54,655 bases of DNA from Candidatus Methanoperedens sp. (GTDB taxonomy: Archaea > Halobacteriota > Methanosarcinia > Methanosarcinales > Methanoperedenaceae), in contig JAUSDC010000078.1 in assembly GCA_030650845.1 (NCBI GenBank), positions 1 through 54,655 on the forward strand, in the 5' to 3' direction. The translations under genes were made by a program, and so were the position numbers. The notes beneath the pieces are model-generated. The model saw only the letters and a program-made list of their open reading frames with translations. It was not told the DNA's origin and made no database searches. The stretch's first letter is position 1, and each line of letters starts with the position of its first letter. Shown one piece after another: positions 14,880 to 36,967 of this stretch.

Positions 14880-15197
14880 TCATTCATCTATCTCAAACAA
14901 ATAATCAAAATATTTCCATGCTTTACAGCAAGCGCAATCTTTCTCATAATCCGGGCATCGAGTTCCCCAATTCTTGATCATGTACTCCTTAACTCTCTCT
15001 TTGAAATAACCGCTGCAATATTCGCACTCCCAGTATTCACCGTCTTTATCAGTTATATTCTTAATGAGATCTTTAGAAAAGAAATACTGGATCGGTATGA
15101 CATTATTTTCCAAAAGTTTAACATCAAATTTATTGCCGCAAACAATACATACCCGGTCTTTAAGTACTGAGCTTTCACTTACTTCTTTCTTTTTCAT
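14880..15197 (-). CDS. Cysteine-rich, probably zinc-binding protein encoded with tfuA
   Basis: 105 residues with CxxC pairs at CIVCGNKF (about residue 18), CEYC (about 59) and a C-terminal CPDYEKDCACC cluster, plus a hydrophilic lysine-rich start. No named family recognised. It overlaps the tfuA stop in an ATGA junction, so it is translated with tfuA and is a candidate extra factor of the thioamidation locus. Confidence 0.7.
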   Translation of the reverse strand: MKKKEVSESSVLKDRVCIVCGNKFDVKLLENNVIPIQYFFSKDLIKNITDKDGEYWECEYCSGYFKERVKEYMIKNWGTRCPDYEKDCACCKAWKYFDYLFEIDE

Positions 15198-15835
15198 AAA
15201 CCCTTTATCATCTTAAGTACAAGCACAGCATCATTTCTTTTTACATCCACTTCATGCTCCAATAATAGTTCAAGCATTTTTCCCTGCTCCGTATCAATGA
15301 TGATACCTTTTTTCATGCACTCACTCACGATATTCCTGTAATTCCTGTCAGGATAGAATAATTTCCTGGCTATATTAAGGATGGAATCAGCTATCTCATG
15401 CTCAAGAAGCCCACTCTCTACCACGGATCCAAGCGTCGCCCTTATGTTAACAAGTGGAACCGACATCGCTTCCATCGTATCCGGATCATAAGTGACCGCA
15501 ACCTCGTCATCAGACTCAAGAACACCGCTCCTGTACATCTCGTATATCTTTCCCACGCCGATCATTCCATATGAATCAAGTTCAGACGCCCGAAGCGCCC
15601 CCATACTGGCTCCACCGACGACAGTAATGCCGTTCTTTATCGCTTCTATTATCTCGCGGTGAGCCACAGCCGCGCTATCAAAAAATACCCCATCTATAAT
15701 TCCGATGATCTCAGGCGGGTTCCTCATTATCCTGGTTATATCATTCCGCTTTACCGGAGCGCGGTAATCTGCATCGAGGATCTTTTTTGCATCAAGATGA
15801 CTTATGCTCGTGCCGGTATATACTACGACTCTCAT
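15194..15835 (-). CDS. tfuA: TfuA-like protein, partner of YcaO in thioamide formation
   Basis: 213 residues with the TfuA core VVGGASMGALRASELDSYGM near residue 72, followed by IYEMYRSGVLESDDEVAV. In methanogens TfuA works with YcaO to convert a glycine of McrA to thioglycine, probably by delivering sulfur. Here it lies 235 nt after ycaO on the same strand; the gap holds repeated DNA. The organism therefore probably has a thioglycine-bearing McrA. Confidence 0.88.
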   Translation of the reverse strand: MRVVVYTGTSISHLDAKKILDADYRAPVKRNDITRIMRNPPEIIGIIDGVFFDSAAVAHREIIEAIKNGITVVGGASMGALRASELDSYGMIGVGKIYEMYRSGVLESDDEVAVTYDPDTMEAMSVPLVNIRATLGSVVESGLLEHEIADSILNIARKLFYPDRNYRNIVSECMKKGIIIDTEQGKMLELLLEHEVDVKRNDAVLVLKMIKGL

Positions 15836-15914: not shown

Positions 15915-15942
15915 TACCACAGAGGACACAGAGAGCACAGAG
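15915..15942. repeat. CACAGAG tandem motif
   Basis: Three imperfect units (CACAGAG, then ACACAGAG, then GCACAGAG) within 28 nt between ycaO and tfuA. Similar CACAGAG-rich runs are common intergenic repeats in many prokaryotic genomes; no function is implied. It adjoins the ACGAACT palindrome. Confidence 0.5.
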
Positions 15943-15980
15943 ATTTACTGCTTTTCTCTGTGCCCTGGTATGAAAAAAAT

Positions 15981-16053
15981 AGCAACGAACACAACGAACT
16001 CGATACGAACTCACGCCACCAGAGTTCGTTTTAGTTCGTACCAGTTCGTTGTT
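15981..16053. repeat. ACGAACT palindromic repeat, copy 1
   Basis: Left arm has ACGAAC(A/T) at 15985, 15994 and 16005; right arm has AGTTCGT at 16023, 16033 and 16043; the ends read near-AACAACGAAC and AGTTCGTTGTT. The arms are imperfect complements around a loop of about 10 nt. Lies between ycaO and tfuA. Same family as copies at 22885 and 36894. Confidence 0.85.
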
Positions 16054-16070: not shown

Positions 16071-17306
16071 TTAATTTACTCGCTTCTTCCTTTTCCTGAT
16101 CCGCTCTCCCTTTCTCTCTCTGTCAAGCGTATATTGCTCAAACATCGGGATAATAGCCCTGATCACAGGGACGTTCACACCCCTTGACAGATCAACGATA
16201 ATGGCACCATCAGCTATTCCATCAATTCTTTCAAGAACTGTGCTGATATTGGCTGCAGGTGTATCGCTTGAGCTGTCCATGATCTCATCCATTGTAACTG
16301 TATCAATGTCCTCATACCAGTACCTGTTCAGTTTTTTCATGTGGTCGTAGCCAAAAGTTCGCACTACCTGTTCCCTGTCAGTATCCTCTCGAGCGCCGTG
16401 TATCTGTACAACCCGGCTCTGTGCAGCCTCTGTAAGAGCCCGTGTTACTGCTATCTTAGGCGACAGGTGCGAGCCCGCCCCCATTACAAGAAGCGCAGGA
16501 TCTTTAAGAACAGTATCATCAAGCGCAACAACAACTGTGGGAATATCAATATCAGATCCAAGCAGCCAGACTTTAACTTTGATCCCTGCTTCTTCAATCT
16601 TCTTTTTCAATGAATAGTTGATCCCATCGCTCTGGGATAGCACGATCTCCCTGCCAGGATCATGGGTATATTCCGCAATGCTGAGAGCATCTCTTTCAAT
16701 CACTTCCAGCAATCCGTGCAGCACTGCCTCTTCGATCGTGTTCCCTGAAGCAAGACCATTGGTATTGCTGCGGAATAGCTTAACTCCAGTCCCGGGATCA
16801 TATGGATGAAAAACAGCGTTTGCGGGGACAAATACTTCAATATCGTTCATGATGTCATGCCCCATCATCCATTCGATCTTTGAGAACTCTGCAAATGGCT
16901 GGGGCAAAAGAAGAGCCTCAGGAAAAAGAGCCGGATAGTCCTCACTTAAAGACTCGTAGGAATTAACGACCCGTTGCGTTTCTGGCTGGACTCCGGGAAG
17001 GTTGATGCTGACCTCTGGCTGCTCAGCAAGACATCGTTCAAAGCTTTCCATGATGGCTGATATCCTGGCGTTTGTTTCATTTACGCCTTTTCCTGAATAT
17101 ATTGAAATAGCACCGGCTGCTGCGCTTGGTCTTATTGCTGAGAATACAGGAATACCCACGCGGTCAAGGTCTGTGATGTTGGCGATACGGGTCACACCGA
17201 TCTTAGATAGCAGCTTTGTCGTCCTCTCAAGTGTGGCTTCGGGGGATAGCACCCGCTGCGTACCTTCAAGATACCTGATATCAGGGTCTAGCTCTATTTT
17301 GCTCAT
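16071..17306 (-). CDS. ycaO: YcaO-domain cyclodehydratase/thioamidase, McrA-glycine type
   Basis: 411 residues. ATP-binding YcaO motifs are visible: SAIMESFERCLAEQ near residue 86 (SxExxER type) and HGLLEVIERDALS near 190, plus a C-terminal half with IVDLSRGVNVPVIRAIIP. The end is basic (RKRKKRVN) rather than the proline-rich tail of azoline-forming enzymes. With tfuA downstream this is the arrangement known for thioglycine formation in methyl-coenzyme M reductase. YcaO activates the amide backbone with ATP. Confidence 0.9.
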   Translation of the reverse strand: MSKIELDPDIRYLEGTQRVLSPEATLERTTKLLSKIGVTRIANITDLDRVGIPVFSAIRPSAAAGAISIYSGKGVNETNARISAIMESFERCLAEQPEVSINLPGVQPETQRVVNSYESLSEDYPALFPEALLLPQPFAEFSKIEWMMGHDIMNDIEVFVPANAVFHPYDPGTGVKLFRSNTNGLASGNTIEEAVLHGLLEVIERDALSIAEYTHDPGREIVLSQSDGINYSLKKKIEEAGIKVKVWLLGSDIDIPTVVVALDDTVLKDPALLVMGAGSHLSPKIAVTRALTEAAQSRVVQIHGAREDTDREQVVRTFGYDHMKKLNRYWYEDIDTVTMDEIMDSSSDTPAANISTVLERIDGIADGAIIVDLSRGVNVPVIRAIIPMFEQYTLDRERKGERIRKRKKRVN

Positions 17307-19059: not shown

Positions 19060-19119
19060 TGGGGGACTGAATCGATTTATAAACCCATTAGATAAAATCA
19101 ATCACTGCTGACTGATCAT

Positions 19120-19448
19120 ATGGTTTTTGCCCCGAAATACAGGGGCAAGATACTGACTGGAGATGTCGCAATGATATGCGAGGGCATTATTTGTAAGACC
19201 TGTAAAGAACTGGGCATTGAGATAATCGAGATAGCAGTAAATCCAGACCACGTCCACATTTTCTTCAAATACCTTCCGAAATATTCGTTAAGTTTTATTG
19301 GTGTGGTGAGCATATGTGGGCGCCTAGCTGCTTCCATGGAAGCGTTGGGAATGGCTGGGATGTTGTAAGCAGGTATATTGATACTCAGGATGTACATCAT
19401 GCTAAGAACGCTAGCTACAGGCCTCGTACATTTGTAAGGGGTTTGTGA
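19120..19448 (+). pseudogene. IS200/IS605-type TnpA (Y1 transposase) remnant
   Basis: Begins LTDHMVFAPKYRGKILTGDVA and includes the HUH motif NPDHVHIFF. After KYSLSFIG the frame shifts and the homologous text resumes as HMWAPSCFHGSVGNGWDVV and SRYIDTQ, ending at 19446-19448. The linker of about 25 residues around the usual KGRTSR region is deleted. It is therefore inactive. No TnpB is nearby. Confidence 0.85.
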
Positions 19449-22677: not shown

Positions 22678-22875
22678 CGGACCTACGAAGTCTGGGGCAA
22701 ATCGTGTTGATAGGTCCTTGCGGGAGAACGGCAACGCCAATATCTATGACCGTACAGACAACCCCAACGCGGTACACGCGATATCGCCTGATACTAGGGT
22801 TACGGCAACGGACTGCGGCATGAGCCATCGGATGAAGTTCCGGGTTAGTGTCAGGCTACAGCAACTCAATTTTTT
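22678..22875 (+). ncRNA. Candidate structured non-coding RNA
   Basis: A GC-rich stretch inside AT-rich flanks with no convincing gene. A TATA-like box CTAAATACTTAA (22646-22657) lies about 26 nt before the proposed start. The stem GGACCTA/TAGGTCC is perfect with a 25-nt loop. Further stems are GGC-AAC-GCC, CGGA-N6-TCCG and GGC-ATGA-GCC, and ACGGCAACG occurs twice. It ends in a T-run at 22870-22875. It lacks the landmark motifs of SRP RNA, RNase P RNA and C/D-box RNAs. A decayed gene is the alternative. Confidence 0.4.
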
Positions 22876-22884
22876 GTAGATAAA

Positions 22885-22957
22885 AACAACGAACTTAACG
22901 AACTGAAACGAACTCCAGTAGCGTGAGTTCGTTTCGAGTTCGTACCCGTTCGTTGTT
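22885..22957. repeat. ACGAACT palindromic repeat, copy 2
   Basis: ACGAACT at 22889, 22898 and 22908; AGTTCGT at 22926 and 22937, and a one-base variant at 22947. The ends are AACAACGAAC and GTTCGTTGTT. It lies just after the candidate ncRNA and 19 nt before the 3' end of the minus-strand gene at 22976, so it could also act as a bidirectional transcript end. Confidence 0.85.
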
Positions 22958-22975
22958 AATTTTTAAACGCACCAC

Positions 22976-23197
22976 CTATCTTTTTATGAGCCTTTCCCTT
23001 ATCAAATAAACACATATCGCAAGCACCGCAACACCGTACAGCGCCTGGAATATGTTCTGATATTTATAATTAAACCAGGTCTGGATCAACATTTCAATTG
23101 ATGTGTATATCTTGAATATTGCCAGTAATGCGAACAGCATTGCTATCAGGAACGTCCCGGTGTAAAAATAATCCTCTAATTTTTCTCGGCTTATCAT
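22976..23197 (-). CDS. Small two-helix membrane protein
   Basis: 73 residues with two membrane segments (FLIAMLFALLAIFKIY and ALYGVAVLAICVYLI) and a short basic end. The start overlaps the stop of the PGF-CTERM gene (TAATG), so the two are co-translated and the product probably works with that surface protein. Confidence 0.7.
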   Translation of the reverse strand: MISREKLEDYFYTGTFLIAMLFALLAIFKIYTSIEMLIQTWFNYKYQNIFQALYGVAVLAICVYLIRERLIKR

Positions 23198-36893: not shown

Positions 36894-36967
36894 AACAACG
36901 AACTCGTACGAACTGATACGAACTCAATTCATTCAGAGTTCGTTCGAGTTCGTATCAGTTCGTTGTT
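36894..36967. repeat. ACGAACT palindromic repeat, copy 3 (most regular)
   Basis: Left arm ACGAACT at 36898, 36908 and 36918; right arm AGTTCGT at 36937, 36947 and 36957: an exact 10-nt period in both arms. Ends AACAACGAACT and AGTTCGTTGTT, loop AATTCATTCA. Lies between cfbC and cfbB, 72 nt after one and 21 nt before the other. Confidence 0.9.

Follow-up and report, generated by a model that had tools for sequence, protein, structure and literature searches.

Dispersed palindromes of phased heptamers in Methanoperedens archaea: putative gene-less derivatives of mobile GxxExxY nuclease units

Palindromes in the window and in its genome

The window, as we call the whole 54,655-nt stretch of DNA analysed, belongs to a Methanoperedens (ANME-2d) type archaeon. 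It harbours three palindromes built of the heptamer ACGAACT and its complement, all located where the first-pass annotation had placed them. Copy 1 (15981..16053, minus strand), which belongs to subfamily A, lies between ycaO (16071-17306, minus strand) and tfuA (15194-15835, minus strand), the genes of McrA-glycine thioamidation. It is followed by a T run and adjoins an unstranded array of another word, CACAGAG (15917..15962; CCACAGAGGACACAGAGAGCACAGAG ... CTCTGTG). Copy 2 (22885..22957, plus strand) is wholly included in a 109-bp insertion (22868..22976, plus strand) defined by comparison with the sister genome G023. Copy 3 (36894..36967, minus strand) occupies the spacer between cfbC and cfbB. 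The gene contexts given by the annotation for copies 1 and 3 are thus right, but the association with MCR genes looks incidental, because palindrome copies occupy many intergenic gaps. The window also contains a remnant of a Y1_Tnp (IS200-type) transposase domain (19102-19293).

The annotation had described three heptamers in each arm. This is exact in both arms only for copy 3, in which the spacing is exactly 10. In copy 1, the outermost left heptamer on the plus strand is ACGAACA, and copy 2 consists of three ACGAACT, an 11-nt loop and then AGTTCGT AGTTCGT CGTTCGT, so that its outermost right heptamer deviates. ACGAACT or AGTTCGT is found 19 times in the window, compared with 3.9 times on average and at most 10 times in 100 dinucleotide-preserving shuffles.

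The genome scan proposed with the annotation revealed a dispersed family. The pattern ACGAACT-N1-5-ACGAACT-N4-34-AGTTCGT has 217 exact matches (91 + 126) in the 3.41-Mb genome that contains the window (G000) and none in its reversed control. For detailed analyses, we used a sample of 569 kb, composed of the window and of 40 stretches selected for arrays and hence biased upward in density, in which a profile search identified 61 copies. As the stretches with these copies cover 129 of the 217 exact matches, the genome holds roughly 100 palindromes. The helical phasing noted in the window extends to the sample: start-to-start spacings are of 9-11 nt in 161 of 168 cases (9 nt in 25, 10 nt in 102 and 11 nt in 34). 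The loop is 11 nt long in 41 of 55 copies. Mean identity reaches 95.5% in heptamer columns and 76.7% in other columns, with a detection profile that favours heptamers. Complementarity of the linkers across the arms is 0.25, compared with 0.40 +/- 0.06 for shuffled linkers (16 pairs only). Since the linkers do not pair, the arrangement looks like one for DNA recognition rather than an RNA stem.

Of the 56 classifiable copies, 53 are intergenic, although 86% of the sample consists of ORFs. Fourteen copies are found in convergent gaps, 29 in tandem ones and 10 in divergent ones, close to the share of each type in intergenic length. Subfamily A copies, including copy 1 of the window, are frequently embedded in arrays of CACAGAG, the word that flanks the genes of another GxxExxY subfamily (see below). 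ACTAACT recurs genome-wide as a one-base variant inside otherwise intact arrays, which suggests tolerance at position 3 of the heptamer. In four genomes, we also found composite palindromes in which mini-hairpins (AAAGCGACACCTCGCTTT, GGTATGCGAAGCATACC, AAACTTTCCTAAAGTTT) are inserted between the heptamers of one arm (L046 1488-1640, L055, L057 and L119).

Distribution and turnover among relatives

The inverted pattern is present in all 34 Methanoperedenaceae genomes, the named matches being in Ca. Methanoperedens records. Elsewhere in the order, three genomes of a sister family harbour it, and it is absent from the remaining 149. A wide scan of public genomes for three direct heptamers revealed no inverted arrays beyond Methanoperedens and its neighbours; the matches collected there are unrelated direct tandem repeats, mostly with a period of 9.

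Among relatives whose genomes are similarly complete, the number of exact matches varies between 1 and 217. Judged by cfbB (93% identical), G023 is the closest to G000; it has a single match against the 217 of G000, and no GxxExxY gene was detected in it. Copies have been gained or lost at orthologous sites. In 1.2 Mb of G023, the two flanks could be located together for 14 of the 61 sampled copies, and the array is absent at all 14 syntenic sites. One of them is the site of copy 2, where G023 runs uninterrupted from CAGCAACTC into TATCTTTTTATGAG (also written CAGCAACTC into TATCTTTTT); no target duplication was seen at this insertion. At another site (E50), G023 has a CACAGAG array without interruption, and G000 has a subfamily A copy within it.

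The array of copy 3 is missing from the cfbC-cfbB spacer in all seven relatives with a readable cfbC immediately ahead of cfbB. In some relatives, the spacer carries arrays of other words just upstream of position 1501 of the respective stretches, namely CGCAAAG in G020 (L227) and CGCAGAT-type arrays in G010 (L231) and G019 (L219), which gives the impression of a site where word-array repeats insert repeatedly.

GxxExxY genes, word arrays and mobile units

A search with half-arrays led to a decayed ORF of M. nitroreducens located between two half-arrays, which corresponds to a GxxExxY protein (TIGR04256). As the gene for this nuclease lies outside the window, the first-pass annotation could not have seen it. 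The GxxExxY proteins of the gene-bearing units belong to a nuclease family of 120-130 residues with the PD-(D/E)XK motif. The protein of the parent unit described below matches PF13366 (PDDEXK_3) with 129 bits for a cut-off of 22, scores above the curated cut-off of TIGR04256 and has kept the active-site residues D68 and E78-x-K80, with E29 and Q92. The best match in the PDB to its AlphaFold2 model (pLDDT 92.8) is Cas4 SSO0001, followed by lambda-type (phage-type) exonucleases. The model fits a predicted DNA nuclease. In the literature searched, the family is merely named in passing, and we found no function or cognate DNA arrays for it; searches for the other array words by their letters yielded nothing relevant.

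The palindromes and GxxExxY genes have their arrays in common. ACGAACT arrays flank the sf6 group on at least one side at all six sf6-type loci read (G000, G001 twice, G010, G027 and G030) and on both sides at five of them. In G000, one sf6 gene is intact (C228:225-602), and a second, 97%-identical one on C43 is cut by the contig end. Other GxxExxY groups each have their own word, CGCAAAG, CACAGAG, CGCAGAT, ACAGGAT or CGCGGAT/CACGGAT. In an unbiased test, we sought the best 7-mer that recurs in steps of 8-12 nt on the two sides of each gene. With a threshold of three or more units per side, matched arrays were found for 42 of 71 GxxExxY genes of archaea and bacteria (one G000 locus being counted twice); the other 29 fell below the threshold. 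The 71 genes include members from Pirellulales, Ignavibacteria and Victivallales genomes. Among the controls, the threshold was reached by none of 300 random windows and none of 10 Y1_Tnp genes, by 1 of 28 cfbB genes and by 3 of 23 four-helix-bundle genes, the latter thus being partly positive. A finished Bacteroides finegoldii plasmid carries a GxxExxY gene flanked by CACAGAG arrays, and the other seven plasmid examples mostly have weaker arrays.

Word similarity tracks protein identity among the 41 distinct genes with strong arrays (Mantel r=0.60, 0 of 5000 permutations as high). Arrays are common to 86% of the pairs with >80% protein identity versus 2% of those at 30-40%. As shared ancestry is uncorrected in the Mantel test, this covariation may reflect either recognition or the joint inheritance of array and gene without contact. 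Across the 34 genomes, array number correlates weakly with the presence of sf6, and the two richest genomes carry several sf6 copies. Five array-rich genomes have no detected sf6 gene (G002, G011, G012, G018 and G029), where it would have been lost or remained unassembled.

Additional observations were made around these genes. In another family of Halobacteriota, GGTTTAG/TTAGCGG arrays accompany some of the four-helix-bundle (TIGR02436) genes (L496, L473, L475, L486 and L471). As some of these unrelated genes have arrays, the latter may not be exclusive to GxxExxY, and other small genes may be cargo of array-bracketed units. On a Sphingomonas parapaucimobilis plasmid (L535 977-1405), a GxxExxY gene preceded by a CGCGAAG-type repeat sits between fabD and fabG in a fatty-acid operon. 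A ACTTTCAC motif, perhaps a promoter or operator element, is conserved ~100-230 bp upstream of GxxExxY genes of two subfamilies (L340, L341, L346, L320, L322 and L347).

The intact G000 sf6 gene is part of an 834-bp unit (C228), the ends of which are inverted repeats of 24 bp (CTATGGTGTCATTGAACCGTTGGA). The palindromes of subfamily B align piecewise to this unit, with the gene absent, and have the same terminal inverted repeats (TIRs); as read from these alignments, they are internally deleted copies of the 834-bp GxxExxY unit. Internal deletion from a coding element, a hallmark of MITEs, was found for this subfamily only. The TIR type, CYATRGCRTCA..., is common to the 834-bp unit, to L498, L502, L506 and L511, and to a 2659-bp transposase-like element (L516 1437-4095, on G000 C190) with CTATGGCATCAATAAACCGTTGGA ends. 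In G000, it bounds both ACGAACT and CGCAGAT units. Further left-end matches stop at contig ends (C95, C224 and C254), as would be expected for a multi-copy unit. The 2659-bp element has no word arrays and encodes a 610-residue ORF distantly similar to annotated transposases, without a Pfam or NCBIfam match; it possibly represents an undescribed insertion-sequence family.

Exact 8-bp target duplications border the 184-bp deleted copy L506 (GATTAGTT) and the CGCAGAT-type unit L512 (TCTGGGAT), both in G000, and the duplication of L511 matches at 7 of 8 positions. We also identified 8-bp duplications at the gene unit of G027 (CGATACTC) and at two units of G001 (ATAAATAG and ATAAACTG), compared with 0 of 380 in shuffled flanks for these three units. 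An automatic search for TIRs with 8-bp duplications at the 61 sampled palindromes gave none, and such a TIR is not detectable in the three window copies. Because TIRs and 8-bp duplications are found on several units and deleted copies, part of the palindrome family appears, on these sequence hallmarks, to behave like MITEs.

Origin of the palindromes and alternative explanations

We propose, with a probability of about 0.68, that the palindromes derive from mobile GxxExxY units, as MITE-like forms that lack the gene, and that their heptamers are putative GxxExxY recognition sites. The gene-bearing form would consist of the nuclease gene between two ACGAACT heptamer arrays, and loss of the gene would leave the two arrays around a short loop, hence a palindrome. 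In each array, about three recognition words would follow one another at intervals of one helical turn, and we infer that the cognate GxxExxY protein binds them on one face of the DNA and cuts there. Spread would have proceeded partly by transposition in trans: units with TIRs would be moved by the transposase-like protein, and the others by another route. The other subfamilies, including the window copies, presumably also arose from gene-bearing units, although none of them carries such a TIR. The amplification in one lineage supports this proposal, because G000 has 217 matches and G023, without a detectable GxxExxY gene, has one. The suggestion in the first-pass annotation of a mobile palindrome thus finds support in the empty sites of G023 and in the derivation of one subfamily from a transposon-like unit, and that of a protein array site is indirectly favoured by the phased heptamers, the non-pairing linkers and the words that track the GxxExxY subfamily.

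Alternatively, the palindromes could be ordinary MITEs and cargo of a DDE-type insertion sequence, with both the arrays and the GxxExxY gene as passengers; the arrays would then be unrecognised by GxxExxY and might bind a transposase, a host protein or nothing. The TIRs and 8-bp target duplications that gene units and their deleted forms carry are in line with this scenario, as is the 2659-bp element, with its matching ends and transposase-like ORF. However, that element is devoid of arrays, and one end type bounds ACGAACT and CGCAGAT units alike in G000. Moreover, the arrays are what varies least between subfamilies that differ in their flanks and have no TIR, and the word found near GxxExxY genes follows the GxxExxY subfamily in many species. 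We consider the passenger scenario unlikely.

The presence of the pattern in every genome of the family, its identical phased heptamers and its intergenic placement despite the high proportion of ORFs might also be explained by host selection for DNA-organising or regulatory sites, involved in chromosome architecture, partition or global regulation. This is very improbable given the range of copy numbers among relatives of similar completeness and the 14 of 14 positions unconserved in the sister species; host architecture sites were rejected for this lack of positional conservation, seen in the G023 synteny and in the cfbC-cfbB spacer of relatives. Classical REP elements, spread by a REP-associated tyrosine transposase (RAYT, Y1_Tnp), are dispersed intergenic palindromes of similar size, and Y1_Tnp domains occur in 31 of the 34 family genomes. 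Many of these matches are fragments, though, and neither ACGAACT arrays nor matched arrays of any word were found at the 10 Y1_Tnp loci; with no Y1 gene bracketed by the repeat, RAYT was rejected as the partner, and we give this origin slightly less credence still. Least probable of all, in our view, is an RNA hairpin with a role in the termination, stability or processing of transcripts; the annotation had also envisaged an element for RNA stability or processing. The long inverted repeat and the T run after copy 1 would be consistent with it, but the linkers are less complementary than shuffled ones, enrichment at 3' ends is not clear beyond intergenic length, and an Rfam search of the window yielded one tRNA only, with no family at the palindromes.

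The proposed derivation from GxxExxY units invites comparison with known systems. Like MITEs, the palindromes are short, gene-less and dispersed, and subfamily B shares with MITEs its TIRs, 8-bp duplications at some copies and internal deletion of a longer unit. In contrast to MITEs, most palindromes, the three of the window included, lack a detectable TIR and a detectable target duplication, and their constant part is the internal word array. With REP/BIME elements and RAYTs, they share a high copy number, intergenic location and a presumed cognate gene bracketed by the same repeat, but this gene codes for a PD-(D/E)XK nuclease rather than a Y1 tyrosine transposase, and the palindrome is made of phased heptamers. 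Homing endonuclease genes reside in their own recognition sites, and the nuclease gene here splits its presumed recognition array; the gene-less arrays would be the empty form, with the difference that this form is itself dispersed. The STRR heptamer repeats of cyanobacteria are likewise dispersed short repeats of 7-nt words, but they are contiguous and direct and are not known to have an inverted plan at 10-nt steps.

In a broader reading, which we regard as an even bet, GxxExxY proteins would be word-array nucleases, a widespread class in which each subfamily recognises its own phased word of 7-8 nt (ACGAACT, CACAGAG, CGCAGAT, CGCAAAG, ACAGGAT, CACGGAT and others). Scattered intergenic arrays in environmental archaea and bacteria would then be recognition sites or their relics, and changes of subfamily would entail changes of word, as in a readable code. 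The family is widely distributed and its function is undescribed in the literature searched, and the pairing of subfamilies with words provides a testable hypothesis of binding that would explain a large class of hitherto unexplained intergenic repeats. If it is true, a type of mobile unit composed of a nuclease and its array would join transposons, REP systems and homing genes, and many natural pairs of protein and word would become available for decoding recognition.
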